From an uncultured Allomuricauda sp. (GTDB lineage Bacteria; Bacteroidota; Bacteroidia; Flavobacteriales; Flavobacteriaceae), in the NCBI RefSeq assembly GCF_947495325.1, contig NZ_CANLYK010000001.1:310001-374000 (forward strand): DNA of 64,000 bases. The letters run 5' to 3'. A model generated the notes under the pieces. That model saw nothing but the letters and a program-made list of their open reading frames with translations. It was not told where the DNA came from and made no database searches. Below are positions 6,761-18,745 of this stretch, in pieces (the first letter of the stretch is position 1; the number at the start of each line of letters is the position of its first letter). The position numbers and the translations under genes were made by a program.

Positions 6761-6827
6761 TAAAAGACATTCTTATCCTTATTCTGACAATTATCATATT
6801 TTCTGCATAACCCCTGAATTACTTTTG
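6761..6827 (+). promoter_or_regulatory. Promoter module A of the copper/nos locus
   Basis: A 47-bp block (6761-6807) matches 10803-10849 at 41 of 47 positions by direct reading, and the match continues as a fixed layout. The element AAAAGACATTCTTATCCTT is followed by the palindrome TGACAATTATCA (6785-6796) and the Bacteroidetes -7 box TACTTTTG (6820-6827). The palindrome start is 35 bp from the -7 box in both copies. If transcription starts about 5-6 bases after the -7 box, the palindrome is centred near -41.5, the class II position for CRP/FNR-type activators. The regulator itself is not identified in this window. Confidence 0.65.
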
Positions 6828-6831
6828 GATT

Positions 6832-7209
6832 GTGAAAAAAATCGCAATCATAGTATTCTCACTATCTATTTTGGCTAAACCATTGTATCCTATTGGTGAG
6901 TACATTATGAATTATGATTATATCGTGAACAACCTATGCGAGAATAAAAACAAACCAGCATTAAATTGCGATGGAAAATGCTACCTCTCCAAACTATTGG
7001 CACAAGAGTCTAAGCAAAGTGAAGAAAATCCGTTCGGAGAAAAACAATCCCAAACCGAAGTGCCACATATTTTCTTTTATAAATTACCTTCTCAAATTTA
7101 TTTTGATGGAAATTTGTTACAAGCTTCAAAAGATAATTTCAAAATTGTTTCCTTATTGAGTTCAACTCCATTTATTTCAGAGATTTCCGAACCGCCTGAA
7201 GTATCCTAA
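6832..7209 (+). CDS. Small exported Cys-motif protein of the copper/nos locus
   Basis: This 125-residue protein starts with GTG and has one N-terminal hydrophobic segment (KKIAIIVFSLSILA). The motif LCENKNKPALNCDGKCYL follows, with three Cys that could bind metal. I know similar short proteins (C-x-N-K..P...C-x-G-K-C-x-L) from Bacteroidota metal loci but have no assigned function for them. It directly precedes the copper-type TonB receptor and lies just behind the nos-type promoter module, so a role in copper handling is inferred. The -7 box ends four bases before the GTG and no other in-frame start lies upstream before a stop, so the mRNA may be leaderless. The C-terminal half is hydrophilic and unassigned. 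Confidence 0.75.
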   Translation: MKKIAIIVFSLSILAKPLYPIGEYIMNYDYIVNNLCENKNKPALNCDGKCYLSKLLAQESKQSEENPFGEKQSQTEVPHIFFYKLPSQIYFDGNLLQASKDNFKIVSLLSSTPFISEISEPPEVS

Positions 7210-7306: not shown

Positions 7307-9376
7307 ATGAAAACCGAATATAGCACTGGGCTTCGCCATTCTATTATTGGTGCCTTAAAAAACAAAAACTTGGTTTTTGTAGTCCTATTGGCATTGATAT
7401 TTCATGGGCAAAGTGCTGCCCAAGAACCAAAAGTAGACTTAATTATAGATTCTATACTGCCTGTACACCTAGAAGAGGTCATTGTAATTTCTTCTTACAA
7501 CAAGGCATTGGAACATAAGTCTCACCATAAACCCTTATCCACTTTAGATGAGTATCTGGAATCCTCAAAAAAAGTGAACATGATTAAAAGAGGAGCATAC
7601 GCCTGGGAGCCTGTTCTTAATGATATGAGTTCAGAGCGCCTATCTGTAACCATTGATGGTATGCGCATTTTTGGTGCATGTACAGACAAAATGGACCCCA
7701 TAACCTCTTATGTAGATGTTTCTAACCTCTCCGATGTTCATGTGGCATCTGGTCAACAGGGCGCGGAACAAGGAGCAACCATAGGGGGGGCTATTGATTT
7801 AAGGCTAGAGAAAAGTAACTTTAATCCAAAAGGATGGGTAGGTTCTATTGAGACTGGCGGCGAAACCAATAACGAAGCTCAAATTATAGGCGGCGAACTG
7901 AATTATTCCGATGAAGCCTTTTATGTTGATACTGATGTTATTTATAGAAATGCTGAAAATTATACTGCGGGTGGTGGTGAAGAGGTTGCATTCTCTCAAT
8001 TTGAAAAATACAATATATCCGCAAATGCAGGTTACAAAGTTTCAGATGATCAGCAACTATTGGCCAGTTTCATTTATGATGAAGCTAGGGATGTGGGTTA
8101 CCCTGCCCTACCTATGGACGTTTCCTTAGCCCAAGCGTTTATTGGCTCCATAAGCTGGAAACAATCCAACTTTATAGGTGATTTAAAAAACTGGGAAACC
8201 AAATTATATGCAAATTCCATAACGCATATTATGGATGATAGCCAAAGACCAGATGTGCCCATACGAATGGATATGCCTGGATGGAGTGATACCTACGGCT
8301 ACTACTCTCAAGCAGAACTTACACTGAACCGCCATAAATTTTTAATGAAATTGGATGGTTTCTACAATCGTTCCTTAGCCGAAATGACCATGTACCCCAA
8401 CAACCCCAATGAGCGGGAAATGTTCATGTTAACTTGGCCAGATGTACGCACAATAAATTCTGGGTTTTATGCCGAGGACGAAATCAGTCTCAAAGAAAGT
8501 TCTTTAAAACTTTCAACAAGATTGGCAGTACAAGGTTTCAATGTAGCAGACGAATTTGGGCTTAATAGTCTTAGAATTTTCTACCCTGAAATGAGTCAAA
8601 GACAGACTCGCTTTCTAAAGAGTGTTTCCGCAGCTTATCATAAAAAATTCAAAACACTCCATATAAACGGTGGACTATCCTATGGTGATCGCGCACCTTC
8701 TGTATCTGAAGGTTTTGGGTTTTATCTGTTCAACAGTTTTGACAACCATGATTATATAGGTGACCCGGATTTAAAAAATGAAAAGGCCATCGAAACCAAT
8801 GTCAAAGTATCATTGCCTCTTAAAAAAGTAAATATAGGTCTTGAGGCCAATTACTTTCATACTATGGATTTTATCATAGGAGAGGTAAATCCAGATTTGA
8901 GCGTTATGACCATTGGCGCCCAAGGAGTTAAAGTTTATAGGAACTTGGAGTATGCTGACCTATACAACATTTCTTTGGACACCAAATATGAAATTACCCC
9001 AGAATTCCTTTGGACAGGACTAATATCCTACCATAGGGGAACTGACCAAGATGGGCGAAATCTGCCCTTTATAAGTCCAATTGCCTATAACTCAATGGTG
9101 CAATACACTACTGGAAGTTTTTCTGGTTCTCTCACAATGCGCGGAGCAGCAGATCAAGTAAACTTCAATCCAGTCTTTGGGGAAGATCGTAGCAATGCTT
9201 ACACGGTTTTTTCAATGGCATTGGGCAAATCGTTTCCTGTAAATAATGATACTGTTTATGTAAAGGCAGGAGTTGAAAATATTTTTGACGAATTCTATTC
9301 CACATATTCAGATTGGAACAATATACCGCGTATGGGACGCAATTTTTTTATGACCGTTTCTTATGCAATCAATTAA
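7307..9376 (+). CDS. TonB-dependent outer-membrane copper receptor (OprC/NosA-like)
   Basis: This 689-residue protein has an N-terminal signal region, a plug domain (~55-170) and a 22-strand-type barrel ending in the typical aromatic/hydrophobic C-terminus (FFMTVSYAIN). The plug carries GACTDKMDP: Cys125 and Met129 form a CxxxM pair. A barrel loop has His307-Ile-Met309 (HxM). CxxxM plus HxM is the copper site described for Pseudomonas OprC, and NosA is its counterpart in N2O-respiring bacteria. The receptor sits between a Cys-motif protein and a Met/His-rich lipoprotein, next to nosZ, whose product needs many copper ions. Copper import is therefore well supported, although no experiment is at hand. 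No SusD partner is present. Confidence 0.88.
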   Translation: MKTEYSTGLRHSIIGALKNKNLVFVVLLALIFHGQSAAQEPKVDLIIDSILPVHLEEVIVISSYNKALEHKSHHKPLSTLDEYLESSKKVNMIKRGAYAWEPVLNDMSSERLSVTIDGMRIFGACTDKMDPITSYVDVSNLSDVHVASGQQGAEQGATIGGAIDLRLEKSNFNPKGWVGSIETGGETNNEAQIIGGELNYSDEAFYVDTDVIYRNAENYTAGGGEEVAFSQFEKYNISANAGYKVSDDQQLLASFIYDEARDVGYPALPMDVSLAQAFIGSISWKQSNFIGDLKNWETKLYANSITHIMDDSQRPDVPIRMDMPGWSDTYGYYSQAELTLNRHKFLMKLDGFYNRSLAEMTMYPNNPNEREMFMLTWPDVRTINSGFYAEDEISLKESSLKLSTRLAVQGFNVADEFGLNSLRIFYPEMSQRQTRFLKSVSAAYHKKFKTLHINGGLSYGDRAPSVSEGFGFYLFNSFDNHDYIGDPDLKNEKAIETNVKVSLPLKKVNIGLEANYFHTMDFIIGEVNPDLSVMTIGAQGVKVYRNLEYADLYNISLDTKYEITPEFLWTGLISYHRGTDQDGRNLPFISPIAYNSMVQYTTGSFSGSLTMRGAADQVNFNPVFGEDRSNAYTVFSMALGKSFPVNNDTVYVKAGVENIFDEFYSTYSDWNNIPRMGRNFFMTVSYAIN

Positions 9377-9414: not shown

Positions 9415-10269
9415 ATGAAAACAATTAAATTTTTCTTAGTCGCACTAATACTTTCAATGACTTTTAGTTCATGTTCGGATAATAATGATGATTCAATTAT
9501 TATATCAGAAAATCCATTGGAAGATTTTAATATGTTGACCAGTTTTAAAGCCAACAATCATAGTGTAGAAATTTATTCTGAACAACAACAGTTTTCCGTA
9601 GGTTACAACGAACTATTCTTCCGAATTAAGGACGATGCTTCTGATAGCTATATCAAAAATGCCGATGTTTCTTGGAAACCCGTAATGCACATGACCTCAA
9701 TGATGCACTCTTGCCCAAATTCTACGGTCTCAAAAACCAATGATGCCTCAGTTTACACAGGTTATACTGTATTTCAAATGCCTGGAAATGCTGATGAATA
9801 TTGGGAGCTCACCTTAGAATATACCGTTGAAGGACAAACTTACAATGCAACAGAACGCATAGAAGTCAATGCCCCCGCCGATGGTAAAAAGACAGTAAAC
9901 GTATTTATGGGAAGTGATGATACAAGATATGTTTTGGCCATGATGCCCATGACACCAGAAGTTGCGGTTAATGATTTTTCAGCCATGCTCTTCAAAATGG
10001 AAAACATGATGTCATTCCCAGCTGTGGAAAATTACAAAGTACATATTGATCCAAGAATGCCTGGCATGGGCAACCATAGTTCACCAAATAATGAAGATCT
10101 AACCTTTGACACATCTTCAAATATGTACACGGGAAAATTGTCATTAACCATGACAGGGTACTGGAAAATAAATCTGAAAGTAGAAAATGAAACTGAAGAG
10201 ATTTTAAAAGGAGAAGATATTACAGAAGAAAATGAAAGCAGTAGTCTGTTTTTTGAGATAGAATTTTAA
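9415..10269 (+). CDS. Met/His-rich lipoprotein, probable copper-binding partner of the TonB receptor
   Basis: This 284-residue lipoprotein has signal peptide and lipobox FSSC (Cys20), followed by SDNNDD, an acidic tail resembling lipoprotein surface-export signals of Bacteroidota. Two similar beta-rich halves each hold a Met/His cluster: MHMTSMMHSCP (residues 91-101) and PRMPGMGNH (213-221). The first resembles YtkA-like domains found near copper proteins. It lies 38 bp behind the copper-type receptor and is followed by a strong terminator, so it closes the copper-capture unit. A copper-binding role is inferred from composition and context; I do not recognise a named family for the whole length. 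Confidence 0.75.
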   Translation: MKTIKFFLVALILSMTFSSCSDNNDDSIIISENPLEDFNMLTSFKANNHSVEIYSEQQQFSVGYNELFFRIKDDASDSYIKNADVSWKPVMHMTSMMHSCPNSTVSKTNDASVYTGYTVFQMPGNADEYWELTLEYTVEGQTYNATERIEVNAPADGKKTVNVFMGSDDTRYVLAMMPMTPEVAVNDFSAMLFKMENMMSFPAVENYKVHIDPRMPGMGNHSSPNNEDLTFDTSSNMYTGKLSLTMTGYWKINLKVENETEEILKGEDITEENESSSLFFEIEF

Positions 10270-10339: not shown

Positions 10340-10771
10340 TCAAAGTGGTAGAAAAGACTTTCCCATCTTGATATTCTTTACTAAATCCCCAACGGTGTTT
10401 TGCTCTAAGTTCTTTACAAAATTAACCTTGGTATTGCCTACAAGATCATGCATTGGACATGGGTGCTCTGCATTACATTCTTGTAAGCTAAGCATACAAG
10501 AAGTTAGCCTGTTATCGCCATCAATTACTTGTATGATTTTCATCAAAGGTGTTTTGATATTTTCATCTGAAAGATAAAATCCGCCTCCTGGACCCCTAAC
10601 CGAAGAGACTATATTATGCTTAGAAAGCTCTTGTAAAATTTTAGATAAATATGCTTTTGGAATATTTGTTGGCCTGCTAATATCCTTTGCCAAAATTTTA
10701 TGGTCTTCGGAAGAATTCACAGCAAGATATAGGACTGCCTTAACTGCATATTTAGAGGAGTTAGATATCAT
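10340..10771 (-). CDS. Rrf2-family transcriptional regulator (probable Fe-S sensor)
   Basis: This 143-residue winged-helix regulator begins MISNSSKYAVKA at the ATG; a TTG three codons upstream is an alternative. The DNA-binding part includes the typical YLSKILQEL and GPGGGFYL. Three Cys (92, 99 and 105 from this start) lie in the segment with CNAEHPCP, matching the Fe-S-ligating cysteine triad region of IscR and NsrR. It is divergent from the cytochrome c/nosZ operon, so it is a good candidate regulator of the nos genes that senses NO, oxygen or iron status. Which signal it reads cannot be told. It could equally be an NsrR-like repressor or an activator. Confidence 0.9.
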   Translation of the reverse strand: MISNSSKYAVKAVLYLAVNSSEDHKILAKDISRPTNIPKAYLSKILQELSKHNIVSSVRGPGGGFYLSDENIKTPLMKIIQVIDGDNRLTSCMLSLQECNAEHPCPMHDLVGNTKVNFVKNLEQNTVGDLVKNIKMGKSFLPL

Positions 10772-10802
10772 GATAAACAAGTTTTAAAACCAATATAAAG
10801 AT

Positions 10803-10869
10803 TAAAAGACATTTTTATCCTTTATATGACAATTATCATGTTTTATGCAATGACTCCAACCTAATTTTG
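10803..10869 (+). promoter_or_regulatory. Promoter module B, cytochrome c/nosZ operon
   Basis: This is the second copy of the module at 6761-6827. It contains AAAAGACATTTTTATCCTT, the palindrome TGACAATTATCA (10827-10838) and -7 box TAATTTTG (10862-10869), with the same 35-bp palindrome-to-box distance. The first gene starts at 10894, giving a leader of about 20 bases. The module lies in the divergent gap with the Rrf2 gene, so its upstream element may also be an operator for that regulator (inference). Confidence 0.68.
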
Positions 10870-10893
10870 AGCATTTAATAAAAATACCCTTAT

Positions 10894-11400
10894 ATGAAAA
10901 TCAATATCGTATTATCAGCATTAATGTTTTCCGTACTGCTCGTAGGATGTGGTGGTAAAGAAGAAAAAAAGACAGATGGTTTTAGTGTGGATCGCAAAAA
11001 ATCAACCGAAAAACCGGTAGAAACTCCAGCGGCTGATAATGAAGTTCCAGCTTCACAGAGGATTACGCTAGATGAAAAAGGGGTAGGACAAATAAAATCC
11101 ATTACGCTTGATCCTGAAATTGATATGGAAATGGCCTCCACGGGAGAAGCTATATACAATACCAACTGTACCGCTTGTCACAAATTGGACAAAAGGTTCA
11201 TTGGTCCATCCCCAAGGGGAATTATGGAAAGAAGAAGCCCGGAGTGGATTATGAACATGATTCTTGATCCCAAACTGATGACTGAACAAGATCGTTGCGC
11301 TAAAGATTTATTGATTGAATTTAATGGAGCTGCAATGGCCAATCAGAATTTAACCGTGGAGGAAACCCGCGCTATCCTAGAATATTTTAGAACATTATAA
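10894..11400 (+). CDS. Lipid-anchored monoheme cytochrome c of the nos operon
   Basis: This 168-residue lipoprotein has lipobox LVGC (Cys19), a charged Pro-rich linker to about residue 75, and one class I cytochrome c domain. The heme motif is CTACH (Cys92, Cys95, His96), and a distal Met is likely at 148 in AAMANQ. It is the first gene of the nosZ operon, 12 bp before the fasciclin gene. By position it is the probable electron donor to NosZ, delivering electrons from the quinol pool via a bc1/alternative complex not encoded here. Heme attachment would need the System II synthase CcsBA at 59.5 kb. Confidence 0.9.
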   Translation: MKINIVLSALMFSVLLVGCGGKEEKKTDGFSVDRKKSTEKPVETPAADNEVPASQRITLDEKGVGQIKSITLDPEIDMEMASTGEAIYNTNCTACHKLDKRFIGPSPRGIMERRSPEWIMNMILDPKLMTEQDRCAKDLLIEFNGAAMANQNLTVEETRAILEYFRTL

Positions 11401-11412
11401 ACTCTAACAAAT

Positions 11413-11997
11413 ATGAAAACAGCCAATCTAAAATTTGTATTCGGCGCCGTTTTAGCACTATTAATGACTTTCGGATGTAAAAACGAGCCCAAAACTGATA
11501 ATTCTACTGTATCCAATACCACAATAAATGATACAGAAGCTAACAAAGAAAAAGGTCAAGCCTTTATTGAAGACGATGGGTCAACACCCAATGTATTGCA
11601 AATAGCAATTGGTTCACCTGACCACACTACTCTTGTAGCGGCTGTGCAAGCCGCAAACCTGGAAAATGCACTTGTAAATGCTGGACCGCTTATGGTTTTT
11701 GCCCCAACCAATGCTGCCTTTGATGCTTTGCCAGAAGGTACAGTTGAAAATTTGTTGAAACCAGAAAACAAAGATGCTTTGGCCAATATCCTTAAACATC
11801 ATGTTACCGCAGGTAACTACTCTAAGGATTTTCTTAAAAAGTTTAAAAAATTAGGCCAGGCCAATGATCAGAATACCACTGTAGAAGTAAAAGGTGAAGA
11901 TGTATATGTAGGAGGTGCCAAGATTATAGCCAGTGTCCCCGCAGGAAATGGCATTGTACATGTTGTGGACAAAGTGATTCTTCCACCTTCAGAGTAA
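11413..11997 (+). CDS. Fasciclin (FAS1) domain lipoprotein in the nos operon
   Basis: This 194-residue lipoprotein has lipobox TFGC (Cys22), an Asn/Thr-rich linker, then a single FAS1 domain (~58-192). The family landmarks are FAPTNAAFDALP and a closing GNGIVHVVDKVILP. FAS1 domains mediate protein-protein or surface contacts and have no known redox role. The placement between the cytochrome c and nosZ, with gaps of 12 and 40 bp, suggests a scaffold or maturation helper for NosZ; that is inference. The domain call is secure. Confidence 0.9.
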   Translation: MKTANLKFVFGAVLALLMTFGCKNEPKTDNSTVSNTTINDTEANKEKGQAFIEDDGSTPNVLQIAIGSPDHTTLVAAVQAANLENALVNAGPLMVFAPTNAAFDALPEGTVENLLKPENKDALANILKHHVTAGNYSKDFLKKFKKLGQANDQNTTVEVKGEDVYVGGAKIIASVPAGNGIVHVVDKVILPPSE

Positions 11998-12037: not shown

Positions 12038-13999
12038 ATGAAAAAGTATAAACATTATGTATTCGCACTTCTTGGAGTGAGTCTATTGCTCGCAGGGTGC
12101 GGAAATCAAACTGGTAAAAGCTCCTCAAATGGCGCGCTATCTTCCAGTGCGGCAGAAAAAGTATACGTAGCTCCGGGAGAACAAGATGAATATTACGCAT
12201 TCCTATCAGGTGGTTATAGTGGAAACCTAACCGTGTATGGTCTACCTTCAGGTAGAATGTTCAAGGAAATTCCTGTTTTTTCGCAATTCCCAACCTCAGG
12301 GTACGGATATTCCGAAGAAACCAAACCTATGTTAAATACTTCCTTTGGATTTGTGCCATGGGATGATGCCCACCACCCTGATATCTCTCAGACCAACGGA
12401 GAACTGGATGGTAGATGGATTTTTATCAATGGTAACAATACCCCGAGAATTGCGCGGATTAGCCTCAGCACCTTCGAAACTGAAGAAATTATAGAGGTCC
12501 CCAATAGTGCAGGTAACCATAGTTCTTCATTTATTACGGAAAACACAGAATATGTAGTCGCGGGAACACGGTTTTCAGTACCCGTTCCGCAACGCGATAT
12601 GCCTATAAACGAATACAAAGGAAACTTTAAAGGGGCATTGTCATTTATCAGTGTTGCACCTGAAAATGGAAGATTGAATCTTGAATTTCAGGTATTAATG
12701 CCAGGGTTTAACTATGACCTTTCTCACCCTGGTAGAGGGAAATCGCATGGATGGTTCTTCTTCACCACATATAATACTGAGGAAGCCAATTCTTTAATGG
12801 AAGTGAATTCTTCGCAAAACGATAAAGATTTTATTGCTGCGATCAATTGGAAAAAGATAGAAGAGTACGTAAAAAATGGTGGTGGTACCAAAATGCCTGC
12901 CAACTATGCGCATAACGTTTATGACGAACACACCCATACCGGTACTTCTACCATGAAAAAAGAAGTGCTGACTGTAGATCCTACCGAAGTTCCTGGTGCA
13001 GTTTTCTTTTTACCAACACCAAAATCGCCACATGGTTGTGATGTAGACCCAACGGGACAATATATTATCGGAAATGGAAAACTATCTGCAGACCTTACCG
13101 TACATTCATTTGATAAAATGATAGCAGCCATTGAAGGTGAAAAATTTGATGGAGAAGCTTATGGCATTCCAATTCTTAAGTTTGAGGATGTTTTGGCTGG
13201 AACCGTAAAAAGCGGTGGATTAGGCCCACTGCACACCGAGTTTGATGCAAACGGAAATGCTTATACCACTTTCTTTATTTCATCTGAAGTAGTAAAATGG
13301 AAACTGGGTACATGGGAAGTTATCGACCGTAAACCTACATTCTATTCCGTAGGGCATTTAATGATTCCTGGTGGAAATTCAAGAAAGCCATTTGGTAAGT
13401 ATGTAGTGGCCATGAACAAGATTACCAAGGACCGTTACTTGCCTACCGGGCCAGAGATGGAACACTCGGCACAGATTTATGACATTTCTGGTGAAAAAAT
13501 GGAATTGATCTATGATTTCCCCACACATGGCGAGCCGCATTATGCTGCCGGTTGCCCCGCAGAACTATTGGCACCCAAATCCAAGAAAATTTATAGACTG
13601 TCAGAAAACAAACATGAATTTGCGACTATTAGTCCAAATGATGCTCGTGTAGAGCGCAATGGCAAAGAGGTTCATATTTATATGTCTACCATTCGTAGTC
13701 ACTTTACCCCAGATAATATTGAAGGTATAAAAGTGGGAGATAAGGTATACTTCCATATCACCAATCACGAACAAGATTTTGATGTGCCCCATGGCTTCTC
13801 AATTATAGGTCAGAATACATCAGAGCTATTGGTAATGCCGGGTCAGACCAAAACCTCTATTTGGGAACCCAAAAAAGTTGGTGTATGGCCATTTTACTGT
13901 ACGGATTTCTGTTCAGCGCTACACCAAGAAATGCAGGGGTATGTAAGAGTATCTCCAGCCAACTCTAATATTGAGCTCTCTTGGTCTTTGGGTGAATAA
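12038..13999 (+). CDS. nosZ: Nitrous oxide reductase, Sec-dependent (clade II), lipoprotein form
   Basis: This 653-residue copper enzyme reduces N2O to N2 in the periplasm. The N-terminus is a Sec lipoprotein signal with lipobox LAGC (Cys21), not the twin-arginine signal of clade I enzymes. The seven-bladed propeller holds CuZ-type His residues, including DAHHPD (His112, His113), SHGW (His237) and PHGCDVDP (His332). The C-terminal cupredoxin domain ends in the CuA motif CTDFCSALHQEM (Cys621, Cys625, His629, Met632), with a further His in DVPHGF. All recognised metal ligands appear intact, so the enzyme should be active. It is preceded by cytochrome c and FAS1 genes and followed by assembly genes. 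Confidence 0.97.
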   Translation: MKKYKHYVFALLGVSLLLAGCGNQTGKSSSNGALSSSAAEKVYVAPGEQDEYYAFLSGGYSGNLTVYGLPSGRMFKEIPVFSQFPTSGYGYSEETKPMLNTSFGFVPWDDAHHPDISQTNGELDGRWIFINGNNTPRIARISLSTFETEEIIEVPNSAGNHSSSFITENTEYVVAGTRFSVPVPQRDMPINEYKGNFKGALSFISVAPENGRLNLEFQVLMPGFNYDLSHPGRGKSHGWFFFTTYNTEEANSLMEVNSSQNDKDFIAAINWKKIEEYVKNGGGTKMPANYAHNVYDEHTHTGTSTMKKEVLTVDPTEVPGAVFFLPTPKSPHGCDVDPTGQYIIGNGKLSADLTVHSFDKMIAAIEGEKFDGEAYGIPILKFEDVLAGTVKSGGLGPLHTEFDANGNAYTTFFISSEVVKWKLGTWEVIDRKPTFYSVGHLMIPGGNSRKPFGKYVVAMNKITKDRYLPTGPEMEHSAQIYDISGEKMELIYDFPTHGEPHYAAGCPAELLAPKSKKIYRLSENKHEFATISPNDARVERNGKEVHIYMSTIRSHFTPDNIEGIKVGDKVYFHITNHEQDFDVPHGFSIIGQNTSELLVMPGQTKTSIWEPKKVGVWPFYCTDFCSALHQEMQGYVRVSPANSNIELSWSLGE

Positions 14000-14752: not shown

Positions 14753-15217
14753 ATGAAAGGTAAACACATCAATTTAAGTCTTATTTTAATACTTCTAATT
14801 GCATCTTGTACAATATCGCCAAAGCCCATAAACTACGGTAGCGATGGATGTCATTTTTGCAGTATGACCATTGTGGATAAGCAACATGCCGCCCAATTTG
14901 TAACAGAAAAAGGCAAAGCCTTTAAGTTTGATGCTGCAGAGTGTATGATGAATCATTTAAAAGAAATTGATGTAGAAACTGTCTCTCTATTTTTGGTCAA
15001 TGATTACCATTCTCCAGGAGATTTGATTGATGCCACAAAGGCTACTTATCTAATTAGCAAGAATATTCCCAGTCCAATGGGTGAATACTTAACAGCTTTC
15101 GAATCCAAAGAGGTAGCAGAAAAAGCTAGGGAACAACATGAAGGTAAACTTTTTACTTGGATAGAATTGAGCAACCGGTTTAATGTTGGAGTTGCTGATA
15201 AAATAAGTCTAAAATGA
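14753..15217 (+). CDS. nosL: NosL copper-delivery lipoprotein
   Basis: This 154-residue lipoprotein has lipobox IASC (Cys19). The characteristic NosL copper site is CHFCSM (Cys33, Cys36, Met38), followed by the family segment KFDAAECMM. NosL hands Cu(I) to apo-NosZ during CuZ assembly, together with NosDFY. It lies 4 bp after the membrane protein and overlaps the following flavin-type gene by 4 bp (ATGA), indicating one transcript and coupled translation. Confidence 0.94.
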   Translation: MKGKHINLSLILILLIASCTISPKPINYGSDGCHFCSMTIVDKQHAAQFVTEKGKAFKFDAAECMMNHLKEIDVETVSLFLVNDYHSPGDLIDATKATYLISKNIPSPMGEYLTAFESKEVAEKAREQHEGKLFTWIELSNRFNVGVADKISLK

Positions 15218-15722: not shown

Positions 15723-16016
15723 ATGTATAGAGTTAAAAGCACAGTTAAAAACCAAGAGTTTGATAAACTTAAAGTTGAAAAAGTGGTTAAAACCAATACC
15801 TTGGAAATATTGAGTATTAGTTTGGAAAGAGATGCAATTTTCCCAGAGCATACATCCTCTGCCGATGCCCAGTTACTTGTTTTGGAAGGAGATATAGACT
15901 TTCACATTCAAGGTAGAACTTTTTATATAACAGAACAACAACATTTTAGTTTTCCAAAGGAAATTGCGCATTGGGTGAAAGCGAATACCAATTCAAAATT
16001 CTTGATCATAAGATAA
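15723..16016 (+). CDS. Small cupin-domain protein
   Basis: This 97-residue protein is a single cupin barrel with PEHTSSADAQLLVLEGD as motif 1 and HFSFPKEIAHWV as motif 2. Possible metal ligands include His43 and the His in AHWV, but the canonical HxH pair is incomplete, so metal binding is uncertain. No signal peptide is seen. Its stop overlaps the nosD start by one base (TAATG), tying it firmly to the nos operon. The function is unknown; a small-molecule or metal sensor/chaperone is a guess from context. Confidence 0.8.
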   Translation: MYRVKSTVKNQEFDKLKVEKVVKTNTLEILSISLERDAIFPEHTSSADAQLLVLEGDIDFHIQGRTFYITEQQHFSFPKEIAHWVKANTNSKFLIIR

Positions 16017-17254
16017 TGAAACAGCTGAGCGGACTACTGGTTTTCTTAATGTTAATTTCGTGGTATACACTGTCCGCAAAAACCATTTCGGTATGCGCCT
16101 CCTGTTCTGTAAAATCTATTAAATCGGGAATCGAAATTGCGGATGCGTTTGATACCCTTCTAATAAAAAAGGGAATTTATAAGGAGTTCAATATTCTTAT
16201 AGATAAACCTTTGACCCTCTTGGGCGATAAATTTCCAGTAATTGACGGTGAAGATCAAGGGGAAATCATCAGAATCGCTTCGGACAATGTGACCATAGAT
16301 GGGTTGTTCATTATCAACGTAGGGACAAGCTATACTTCAGATTACGCAGCCATTCGTGTGGTAAAAAGCGAAAACTTTCTCATTCAAAATGTTGTATTAG
16401 AAAAATTATTTTTCGGGATTTATCTAGAAAAGTCCAATAACGGCAGGGTATACCATAACAAAATTATTGGGGATGCGGTGGATGAGTACAATTCTGGCAA
16501 CGGAATTCAGCTTTGGTACTCTAAAAATGTAGAAGTAGATCGCAATATTGTCCAGGGAGTGCGCGACGGCATTTATTTGGAGTTTTCGGACAACATAACA
16601 ATCAATAATAATATTAGCTCCAATAATCTCAGGTATGGACTCCACTTTATGTTCTCCAATGATGATATCTATACCAACAATACCTTTGAAAATAATGGCG
16701 CTGGCGTTGCTGTGATGTTCTCCAAAAGGATAAAAATGGTAGGTAATACATTTAAAAAAAATTGGGGTGCCGCGGCTTTTGGAATGTTGTTGAAAGAGAT
16801 TAACGACGCTGAAATATATGGGAACACTTTTGAGGAAAATACGATAGGCATCAATATAGAAGGCTCTAACAGAATACAATATAAAAACAACAATTTTATT
16901 AAAAACGGATGGGCAATTAAAGTATTAGGAGCCTGTTATACCAACACCTTCTCAAAAAACAATTTTCTCTACAATTCTTTTGATATTTCCTATAACAGCA
17001 AGCTCAATGATAATGTTTTTGACCAAAATTACTGGAGCAACTACACAGGGTACGATCTAGATAAAAATGGAATTGGAGATGTACCCTATAGACCTGTAAA
17101 GCTATTTTCTTATATAGTAAACAGAACCCCAGAAACCATTGTACTGCTTCGCAGTCTGTTCATGGATATCATTGATTTCTCTGAAAAAGTTTCGCCCGTT
17201 TTCACTCCAGATAACCTAATGGACGCGAATCCCTTAATGAAAAGAACAATATGA
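16016..17254 (+). CDS. nosD: NosD, periplasmic copper-insertion beta-helix protein
   Basis: This 412-residue exported protein has signal peptide MKQLSGLLVFLMLISWYTLSA and a right-handed parallel beta-helix of CASH/NosD repeats. Recurrent Asn-rich turns (NNNI, GNTF, KNNNF) run through most of the chain. The ATG at 16016 is chosen because the signal peptide begins there and it overlaps the cupin stop; an upstream in-frame ATG at 15971 lies inside the cupin gene. NosD works with the ABC transporter NosFY and with NosL in assembling the CuZ centre. It overlaps nosF by 4 bp. Confidence 0.95.
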   Translation: MKQLSGLLVFLMLISWYTLSAKTISVCASCSVKSIKSGIEIADAFDTLLIKKGIYKEFNILIDKPLTLLGDKFPVIDGEDQGEIIRIASDNVTIDGLFIINVGTSYTSDYAAIRVVKSENFLIQNVVLEKLFFGIYLEKSNNGRVYHNKIIGDAVDEYNSGNGIQLWYSKNVEVDRNIVQGVRDGIYLEFSDNITINNNISSNNLRYGLHFMFSNDDIYTNNTFENNGAGVAVMFSKRIKMVGNTFKKNWGAAAFGMLLKEINDAEIYGNTFEENTIGINIEGSNRIQYKNNNFIKNGWAIKVLGACYTNTFSKNNFLYNSFDISYNSKLNDNVFDQNYWSNYTGYDLDKNGIGDVPYRPVKLFSYIVNRTPETIVLLRSLFMDIIDFSEKVSPVFTPDNLMDANPLMKRTI

Positions 17255-17970
17255 TTCAAGTAGAAGGCTTACATAAAAAGTTTAGTAAGAATCAAGTCCT
17301 TTCAGGATTGGATTTAAATATTCAAAAGGGTGGAATCTTTGCCATACTAGGCCCCAATGGCTCAGGTAAGACCACACTGATAAAGATTATTCTGGGCATG
17401 GTTATCGCGGATAAAGGAACTGTTTCTGTCTTTGGAAAGCCCATTAAAAACAAATGGAAGTATCGTCAAGAAATAAAATACCTTCCACAGATTGCCAACT
17501 TCCCCAGCAATCTTAGGGTACGGGAACTTATTAGAATGATAAAAGATTTACGCCAGCAAACCAGCGAAGAAGAACAACTTATTGAGTTATTTGGGCTGAA
17601 ACCTTTTTTGGATAAAAAACTGGCTACACTTTCAGGTGGAACAAAACAAAAGGTAAACATTGTTTTAGCTTTTATGTTTGACAGTCCTTTGCTAATTCTT
17701 GATGAGCCTACAACTGGCTTGGACCCAGCCGCTTTAATTCGTTTGAAAGAACTCATTCAAAAAGAAAAACAAAAAGGCAAGACCATTCTAGTCACTAGTC
17801 ATATTATGCAATTTGTGGAAGAGGTTGCGGATGAAATTGTTTACCTGTTGGAAGGTAAGATTTATTTTAAGGGAAGAATCTCAGAACTTATGGAGAAGAC
17901 ATCCCAAACTAATTTTGAACATGCCATAGCGGCCATAGCAACCAAAACGACCAAAACGACCAATGCTTAA
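17251..17970 (+). CDS. nosF: NosF, ABC transporter ATPase for NosZ maturation
   Basis: This 239-residue ATP-binding subunit has Walker A GPNGSGKT (34-41), signature LSGGT (127-131), Walker B LLILDE (147-152) and the switch His in TSHIM. It pairs with NosY in the inner membrane and with periplasmic NosD. It overlaps nosD by 4 bp and nosY by 8 bp. The C-terminal tail is encoded by a short direct repeat (ACCAAAACG twice), giving TKTTKTT, probably neutral. Confidence 0.95.
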   Translation: MIQVEGLHKKFSKNQVLSGLDLNIQKGGIFAILGPNGSGKTTLIKIILGMVIADKGTVSVFGKPIKNKWKYRQEIKYLPQIANFPSNLRVRELIRMIKDLRQQTSEEEQLIELFGLKPFLDKKLATLSGGTKQKVNIVLAFMFDSPLLILDEPTTGLDPAALIRLKELIQKEKQKGKTILVTSHIMQFVEEVADEIVYLLEGKIYFKGRISELMEKTSQTNFEHAIAAIATKTTKTTNA

Positions 17971-18745
17971 AATTTTAAAATACAGTTTTTACGATTTAAT
18001 GCGTAGTCGCTGGAGCTATGTATATTTTCTGTTCTACTTGGCCTTAGGTTTTGTGCTTCTATTCTTGAACAACGATGTATCTAAAGCCGTAATAACGCTT
18101 ATGAATGTAATCATTGTATTGGTACCTCTAATAGGAACCATCTTTGGGGTCATGTATTATTATGATTCCAAAGAATTTACTGAACTTTTATTGGCACAGC
18201 CTATTAAGCGTTCCTCCATTTTTCTAGGGCAATATCTTGGTGTTGCCTGCTCTTTAACCTTAAGTCTCGTCTTGGGATTGGGTATTCCGTTTCTTCTTTA
18301 TGGTCTTTTTAGGAGTGATGTTATTTTCGATTTTTCATTGCTATTGGTTACCGGTACGTTCTTAACACTCATATTTACCGCGATTGCTTTTAACATTGCA
18401 ATATCAAATGAAAATAAAATAAAAGGTTTTGGGTATGCAGTGTTGGCTTGGTTATTTTTGGCTGTAGTTTATGATGGGTTGTTTTTAATGTCATTGATTG
18501 TGTTTGAAGAATATCCATTGGATTCTTTTTCGTTGACAGCGACTATGTTAAACCCCATAGACCTTTCAAGAACATTGATTTTACTTAAATTGGATATTTC
18601 GGCACTACTAGGCTATACAGGTGCTGTTTTCAAAGAATTTTTTGGAACTAATAGTGGTCTTATCATTTCCATTGTGATGCTTTTTTTGTGGACCGTTTTA
18701 CCCACCTGGCGATTGGTTTATAAATCCAAGCGAAAGGATTTTTAG
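17963..18745 (+). CDS. nosY: NosY, ABC transporter permease for NosZ maturation
   Basis: This 260-residue inner-membrane permease has six hydrophobic helices, starting with WSYVYFLFYLALGFVLLF and ending near the C-terminus with LIISIVMLFLWTVLPTW. It belongs to the ABC-2/NosY family and is the membrane partner of NosF. It is the last gene of the nos operon. No clear terminator hairpin is seen in the 49 bp before the convergent mnmE stop, so the transcript may run into mnmE antisense. Confidence 0.93.
   Translation: MLKILKYSFYDLMRSRWSYVYFLFYLALGFVLLFLNNDVSKAVITLMNVIIVLVPLIGTIFGVMYYYDSKEFTELLLAQPIKRSSIFLGQYLGVACSLTLSLVLGLGIPFLLYGLFRSDVIFDFSLLLVTGTFLTLIFTAIAFNIAISNENKIKGFGYAVLAWLFLAVVYDGLFLMSLIVFEEYPLDSFSLTATMLNPIDLSRTLILLKLDISALLGYTGAVFKEFFGTNSGLIISIVMLFLWTVLPTWRLVYKSKRKDF

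Follow-up and report, generated by a model that had tools for sequence, protein, structure and literature searches.

The window analysed here is the whole stretch of 64,000 nucleotides from an uncultured Allomuricauda sp. Two units lie side by side in it, one that probably serves copper capture and one (nos) that encodes N2O reductase, with a divergent regulator gene of the Rrf2 family between them (Table 1). The product of nosZ is of the Sec-dependent type, which we take to be clade II, and matches the NosZ of Flagellimonas hymeniacidonis (Flavobacteriaceae) with 100% identity across 653 residues. The 125-aa product of the first copper-unit gene had no Pfam or NCBIfam match at an E-value of 0.001. 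The TonB-dependent receptor scored below the equivalog cut-off of its best match, and it is by inference that a role in copper is assigned to it. For rrf2, the ATG at 10771 is a likelier start than the end of the frame at 10780. Elsewhere in the source genome, two strong matches to the COX1 family (read as cbb3-like and aa3-like) and one weak match below the cut-off were observed. No clear NorB was seen among these COX1-family matches, and the organism may be an N2O reducer that has no NO reductase.

Table 1. Features of the copper unit, the nos unit and their promoters (window coordinates)
Feature	Position	Strand	Remarks
Upstream element, copper unit	6761..6782	+	A-box AAGACA-TTCT-TATCCT at 6764-6779, predicted Rrf2 operator; matrix score 20.6; centre 6771.5 (-60.5)
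CRP/FNR-type palindrome TGACAATTATCA, copper unit	6785..6796	+	Centre at -41.5
Bacteroidota -7 promoter box TACTTTTG, copper unit	6820..6827	+	35 bp from palindrome start
First copper-unit gene, 125-aa Cys-containing protein	6832..7209	+	GTG start at predicted +1
TonB-dependent receptor	7307..9376	+	Closest in NCBIfam to the copper receptor TIGR01778, 115 bits (equivalog cut-off 472)
YtkA-like lipoprotein	9415..10269	+	PF13115
Rrf2-family regulator, divergent from nos	10340..10780	-	PF02082, TIGR00738; C-X6-C-X5-C
Upstream element, nos unit	10803..10824	+	A-box AAGACA-TTTT-TATCCT at 10806-10821, predicted Rrf2 operator; matrix score 25.3
CRP/FNR-type palindrome TGACAATTATCA, nos unit	10827..10838	+	Centre at -41.5
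-7 promoter box TAATTTTG, nos unit	10862..10869	+	Predicted +1 at 10874
c-type cytochrome lipoprotein, first nos gene	10894..11400	+	PF00034
Fasciclin-domain lipoprotein	11413..11997	+	PF02469
nosZ, Sec-dependent N2O reductase	12038..13999	+	TIGR04246, 931 bits (cut-off 625)
nosL	14753..15217	+	PF05573
Probable nosD, nosF, nosY	15971..18745	+	From translation and gene order

The first-pass annotation had described a 67-bp layout common to the two promoters, and this was confirmed. The stretches 6761-6827 and 10803-10869 are identical at 41 of their first 47 bases and at 51 of all 67, while the next-best 47-base match in the window, on both strands, reached 28. In both copies the palindrome TGACAATTATCA (from 6785 in the copper unit and from 10827 in the nos unit) is followed, exactly 35 bp from its start, by a TAnnTTTG box (TACTTTTG from 6820 and TAATTTTG from 10862). 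The identity between the copies is clustered at the motifs, and the spacer has diverged. The number of palindromes was rejected as evidence of significance: TGAYAATTRTCA, with at most one mismatch, occurred at two places in the 64 kb, which are these two copies, and shuffled sequences gave 1.7 on average. Hence it is the layout that is significant, and not the palindrome count alone. The exact palindrome occurs at six places in the source genome. An A-rich element of 20 bp had also been claimed for the two promoters. It is indeed present in both, but it contains a second palindrome, ARGAYA-N4-TRTCYT (here called the A-box), that is conserved in relatives.

According to passages of two start-site papers on Flavobacterium, the -7 box spans -12 to -5 in F. 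johnsoniae and F. psychrophilum (PMC9723704, PMC6847099). When these positions were applied to the boxes of the window, the starts were predicted at 6832 and 10874. The centre of the CRP/FNR-type palindrome then falls at -41.5 in both copies, and that of the upstream palindrome 19 bp away, at -60.5. A TGA-N6-TCA palindrome near -41.5 is what is expected of a class II CRP/FNR site, and it was found here relative to a start deduced from the -7 box. The class II site predicted at first pass is well supported by its conservation and by the set of sites in the genome, both described below.

Conservation was examined in Flavobacteriaceae, where 181 of the 397 genomes scanned had a NosZ of this type. 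Upstream regions were taken from 100 of the 181, mainly in order of NosZ score, and the window brought the number to 101. The search for the palindrome ran from -160 to -20 relative to the first nos gene, and where several were present the one bearing a box was preferred. TGAY-N4-RTCA preceded 94 of the 101 nos operons, and TAnnTTTG lay exactly 35 bp on in 88 of them; the other six had no exact box at +35, and in four (L079, L115, L122, L138) TAnnTTTA could be seen there by eye. No TGAY-N4-RTCA was found between -160 and -20 at the remaining seven operons (L051, L052, L057, L120, L127, L132, L142). In the 88 promoters, positions that played no part in the selection were also conserved: a TA before and a T after the palindrome, the T run, and the upstream palindrome.

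A later set drawn from named records comprised 80 loci, 77 of them usable, with the palindrome at 69, the box at +35 at 61 and a strong A-box at 64. After removal of the promoters identical to earlier ones, the corresponding counts were 65, 57 and 60 out of 73. The full module was missing at 16 of the 77 named loci, including six of Arenibacter and four of the six listed loci titled outside Flavobacteriaceae; it was present at one Cryomorphaceae-titled locus and one Acidiluteibacter locus. At the six Arenibacter nos loci (L401, L411, L415, L419, L422, L427), whose NosZ is 87-89% identical, no palindrome occurred in the stretch searched. It may be noted that a lack of conservation of the palindrome upstream of nos genes in relatives had been named beforehand as an outcome against the proposed promoter; with 94/101 in the first set and 65/73 in the second, this did not occur.

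To score the A-box, a matrix was derived from the 63 nos promoters, out of 88, that scored at least 12. The scores on nos promoters are therefore not independent of the matrix, and those before distal Rrf2 genes, away from the nos promoter, come from other places. ARGAYA-N4-TRTCYT occurred without mismatch in only 41 of the 88 nos promoters. Of the 45 distal Rrf2 matches 30 were examined, and 22 of these had the A-box upstream at a score of 14, compared with 2 of 504 control upstream regions; the other eight scored below 14. Among the nos promoters, it occurred in 82 of the 94 from genomes with a nos-type Rrf2, the other 12 having no strong A-box, and in none of the five from genomes without it; the search for distal Rrf2 genes excluded L062 and L085. 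Fisher tests on these data carry no correction for the relatedness of the genomes.

The assignment of Rrf2 to genomes depended on the search. At an E-value of 1e-25 ten genomes had no match, and three of them had an A-box. A laxer search revealed Cys-triad Rrf2 genes in these three and in two others that had no A-box; these five of the ten were thus reclassified on the Cys triad, at a time when the A-box scores were already known. Among the 16 Rrf2 matches of the laxer search, all six with the triad had an upstream A-box score of at least 10.5, and all ten without it scored 3.0 or less. Of the adjacent Rrf2 genes, 48 of 50 showed the triad, the two exceptions (L117 and L134) having interrupted frames, and so did the Rrf2 genes at 30 of 30 distal loci (of 39 distal genomes). 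At L117 and L134, and likewise at L314, the interrupted Rrf2 frame stands beside an otherwise ordinary nos cluster.

Since the A-box tracks the Cys-triad Rrf2 in both comparisons (22/30 vs 2/504; 82/94 vs 0/5), the sequences suggest a promoter with two inputs, and the upstream operator most likely belongs to the divergent regulator at 10340-10780. The copper and nosZ units had been proposed to be fired by one switch. What holds of this proposal is that the CRP/FNR site is common to both; each copy, however, has two operators. In the source genome 20 A-box-like sites were checked, and the only intergenic ones were those of the nos and copper units. The other 18 lie inside reading frames of at least 150 codons and were rejected as further members.

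The regulator of the window is a member of the Rrf2 superfamily (98.5 bits against a cut-off of 73.3 for TIGR00738; 96.7 against 30 for PF02082). It scored below the equivalog cut-offs for NsrR (NF008240, 39.1 vs 182 bits) and for IscR (TIGR02010, 79.3 vs 207.55 bits). As in NsrR, there is a cluster of three cysteines, here C-X6-C-X5-C, a spacing that differs from that of E. coli NsrR. At three of 13 loci inspected (L181, L185, L190; Pfam on L181 only), a Cys-triad Rrf2 gene is followed by an ScdA/RIC-type gene, a neighbourhood that hints at a role of this Rrf2 in nitrosative stress or Fe-S repair. NO is not an obvious signal for it, since the source genome is without a clear NorB. Rrf2 paralogues of CFLGL type were found divergent from nadA at seven loci (L173, L177-L180, L183, L184; Pfam on L183 only), and five of these have a CRP/FNR module on the nadA strand too.

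Where rrf2 is divergent, a TAnnTTTG box on the rrf2 strand adjoins the A-box at 27 of 44 loci, compared with 2 of 44 others; the rrf2 of the window has only an imperfect TAnnTTTG. As the A-box abuts the -7 box of rrf2 in relatives, autorepression is probable, and the A-box of the nos unit is predicted to be the autoregulatory site of rrf2 too. Strong A-boxes keep a tight distance from the CRP/FNR site, 72 of 83 being at an offset of -24 or -25, including those of promoters with no adjacent rrf2. Such spacing could mean that Rrf2, bound at -60.5, joins the CRP/FNR protein in activation and is not a repressor. However, the A-box lies beside rrf2's own -7 box, as for autorepression, and the 19 bp between the two centres would leave little room for two dimers. 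We regard co-activation as possible, if doubtful, and repression by Rrf2 is the reading carried forward below.

The pattern TGAY-N4-RTCA-N23-TANNTTTG was found at nine sites in the source genome compared with none in a reversed control, and at 818 compared with 15 over 100 genomes of the family. The nine sites precede the copper unit, the nos unit, and genes for OmpW, a biotinyl-domain protein, a thioredoxin-like protein, an S30AE ribosome factor, Usp, a HemN-like protein and a CRP/FNR protein. The HemN call is our own reading, the radical-SAM match being below the cut-off on the first 130 residues. The biotinyl-domain (L152) and thioredoxin-like (L153) targets may be due to chance or real. 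Palindromes of the source genome at L003 and L004 were not taken as sites, for they have no -7 box at +35. One region of 25 kb (G000:C4:136119-160918) contains four modules and one more palindrome, along with a COX1-family gene (read as cbb3-like) and the CRP/FNR gene.

This last gene, at G000:C4:160196-160882 of the source genome, encodes the candidate activator. The protein belongs to the CRP/FNR family, with PF00027, PF13545 and PF00325 all above cut-off. E. coli FNR has an N-terminal C-X2-C-X5-C and a fourth cysteine. The candidate has CENC and only single Cys further on; because it is without the cysteine spacing of E. coli FNR, it is termed simply FNR-type, and a cluster with other ligands is possible. 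Among the candidate gene and its best matches, 30 in all with the source copy, 26 had the palindrome within 200 bp upstream, but the full module (a box at +35) preceded just five. When 80 genomes were searched (E-value 1e-30), 54 had the candidate protein, and all 54 had at least one module. Among the 26 genomes without the candidate type, seven were module-free and 19 still had modules, in which another member of the family must serve; all seven module-free genomes thus lack the candidate. On the co-occurrence in 54/54 and 7/7 genomes this protein is the best candidate for the activator, yet, given the 19, not the only possible one.

Accordingly, a different CRP/FNR protein has to be considered for the palindrome, either of the L201 type (encoded at C2:14974-15621 and bearing C-X2-C-X4-C at its N terminus) or an NO sensor like DNR/NnrR. 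L201 carries an E-x-x-I-R helix like that of the candidate, and the persistence of modules in the 19 genomes agrees with such a protein. The palindrome upstream of the candidate's own gene at 26 of 30 loci, and the lack of the candidate in every module-free genome, argue against it, and we consider it unlikely that one of these proteins takes the place of the FNR-type candidate.

At an E-value of 1e-130, 78 of 397 genomes had a relative of the TonB-dependent receptor, and 73 upstream regions were analysed, four of them truncated where a contig ended. The closer group has the CRP/FNR module (spacing 34-36) within 1750 bp at 39 of 58 units. In the distant group (39-44% identity), which served as the control, it was found within 1750 bp at none of 15, with the spacing of 34-36 likewise allowed. 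A strong A-box was present at six of the 58 closer units. Among eight more copper loci, the window included, it was present in six (the window, L050, L095, L106, L139 and L147), mostly close relatives. From the 39/58 and 6/58 counts, control of CRP/FNR type appears to be widespread at both units, and shared control of Rrf2 type to occur in a minority.

A start codon lies 2-8 nt after the -7 box at 31 of the 39 copper units (29 of them at 4-5 nt), compared with none of the 88 nos promoters. With the start codon so close behind the box, the mRNA of these copper units is predicted to be leaderless, by which a start codon no more than about 2 nt from +1 is meant. Leaderless mRNAs are put at 5.5% for F. 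psychrophilum in passages of the Flavobacterium start-site papers (PMC9723704/PMC6847099). Because they are rare there, the conserved start position of the copper unit is unusual. The first gene of the unit (6832-7209 in the window; loci L210-L267) has a C-x(n)-C-x-G-x-C pattern and is of two sequence types, both of which often start right after the -7 box; it is possibly a copper-responsive leader ORF. The motif search for this gene missed 25 of 80 sequences, and the counts of 39/58 and 31/39 are independent of that search.

Many copper units, as well as targets in the source genome, have the palindrome and the -7 box without an A-box. This would be in line with a single switch, for which the CRP/FNR site alone matters and the upstream element is an A-tract, UP-like, or part of a longer footprint of the activator. 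Such a reading is improbable, as the upstream element is palindromic and both of its arms carry information, and the A-box also lies before Rrf2 genes away from the nos promoter and follows the Cys-triad Rrf2. That the copies are alike (41/47 bases) merely from a recent promoter duplication, with no functional constraint, is highly improbable, because the identity is concentrated at the motifs, the spacer is divergent, and each copy is separately conserved in relatives, across genera.

The sites, their spacing, their conservation and their co-occurrence can be read off the sequences. They make it likely that a composite promoter, with an FNR-type activator and Rrf2, exerts joint control over copper capture and N2O reductase. 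As to which proteins bind, which signals they meet and in which direction Rrf2 acts, we infer the following. RNA polymerase with the housekeeping sigma factor would use the TAnnTTTG box. A CRP/FNR activator, for which the FNR-type protein from G000:C4:160196-160882 is the likeliest candidate, would bind TGAC-AATT-ATCA at -41.5 and, under low oxygen, fire as at class II sites. The Cys-triad Rrf2 (10340-10780) would bind AAGACA-N4-TATCCT at -60.5 and is probably a repressor of rrf2 itself. At the promoters of the nos and copper units it would, somewhat more tentatively, hinder the activator until its cluster meets a signal, perhaps NO. Copper capture and N2O reductase would thereby depend together on low oxygen and on a second signal.

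Neither this promoter nor nosZ switching in these bacteria was described among the matches listed from the open-licence PMC literature. It is conceivable that N2O respiration in Bacteroidota is gated by two proteins acting on a fixed tandem operator, an FNR-type activator and a hitherto undescribed Cys-triad Rrf2 regulator that belongs to the nos clusters. In some lineages this regulator would also have annexed the copper operon, whose small Cys-containing first gene would be read from a leaderless mRNA and may be a copper-responsive leader ORF; we put this forward only as a speculative proposal. N2O is a greenhouse gas, and the nos gene set destroys it. Copper supply is a known limit on NosZ activity. 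The conserved operator pair allows the conditions of N2O consumption to be predicted in a directly testable way and ties them to the supply of copper, and the two DNA motifs can be used to draw regulons in other genomes of Flavobacteriaceae.

Like promoters activated by CRP/FNR at class II sites, those described here have TGAY-N4-RTCA centred at -41.5; they differ in having the -7 box TAnnTTTG instead of TATAAT, and an extra operator at -60.5. The HemN-like and OmpW targets resemble known FNR targets. NosA and OprC are outer-membrane copper receptors linked to N2O reductase, and the present unit resembles them in tying an outer-membrane copper protein to that enzyme. The likeness is drawn from the protein and not from the promoter architecture, and the receptor of the window is below the TIGR01778 cut-off. 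With NsrR and IscR the regulator shares the Rrf2 superfamily, the Cys triad, a site of the autoregulatory type and, at some loci, neighbours of RIC/ScdA type; it differs in lying below both equivalog cut-offs. Its operator, ARGAYA-N4-TRTCYT, is also different from the proteobacterial NsrR site. Enrichment of Rrf2-family regulators on clade II nos scaffolds is stated in a passage of an earlier report (PMC6264515), in the main text of which the term 'binding site' occurs 0 times; a predicted operator is given here. The manner in which the first copper-unit gene might act as a leader ORF can be likened, by analogy, to that of CruR from another phylum, as outlined in part of PMC12914433. Finally, in the control of denitrification by DNR in Proteobacteria, a site resembling the FNR box precedes most denitrification genes, nosZ included, with the consensus CTTGATnnnnATCAAG (as excerpted from PMC1274295). 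The nosZ promoter described here is like these in its FNR-box-like upstream site, but its flanks give TATGAYNNNNRTCATA, and an operator of Rrf2 type is added.
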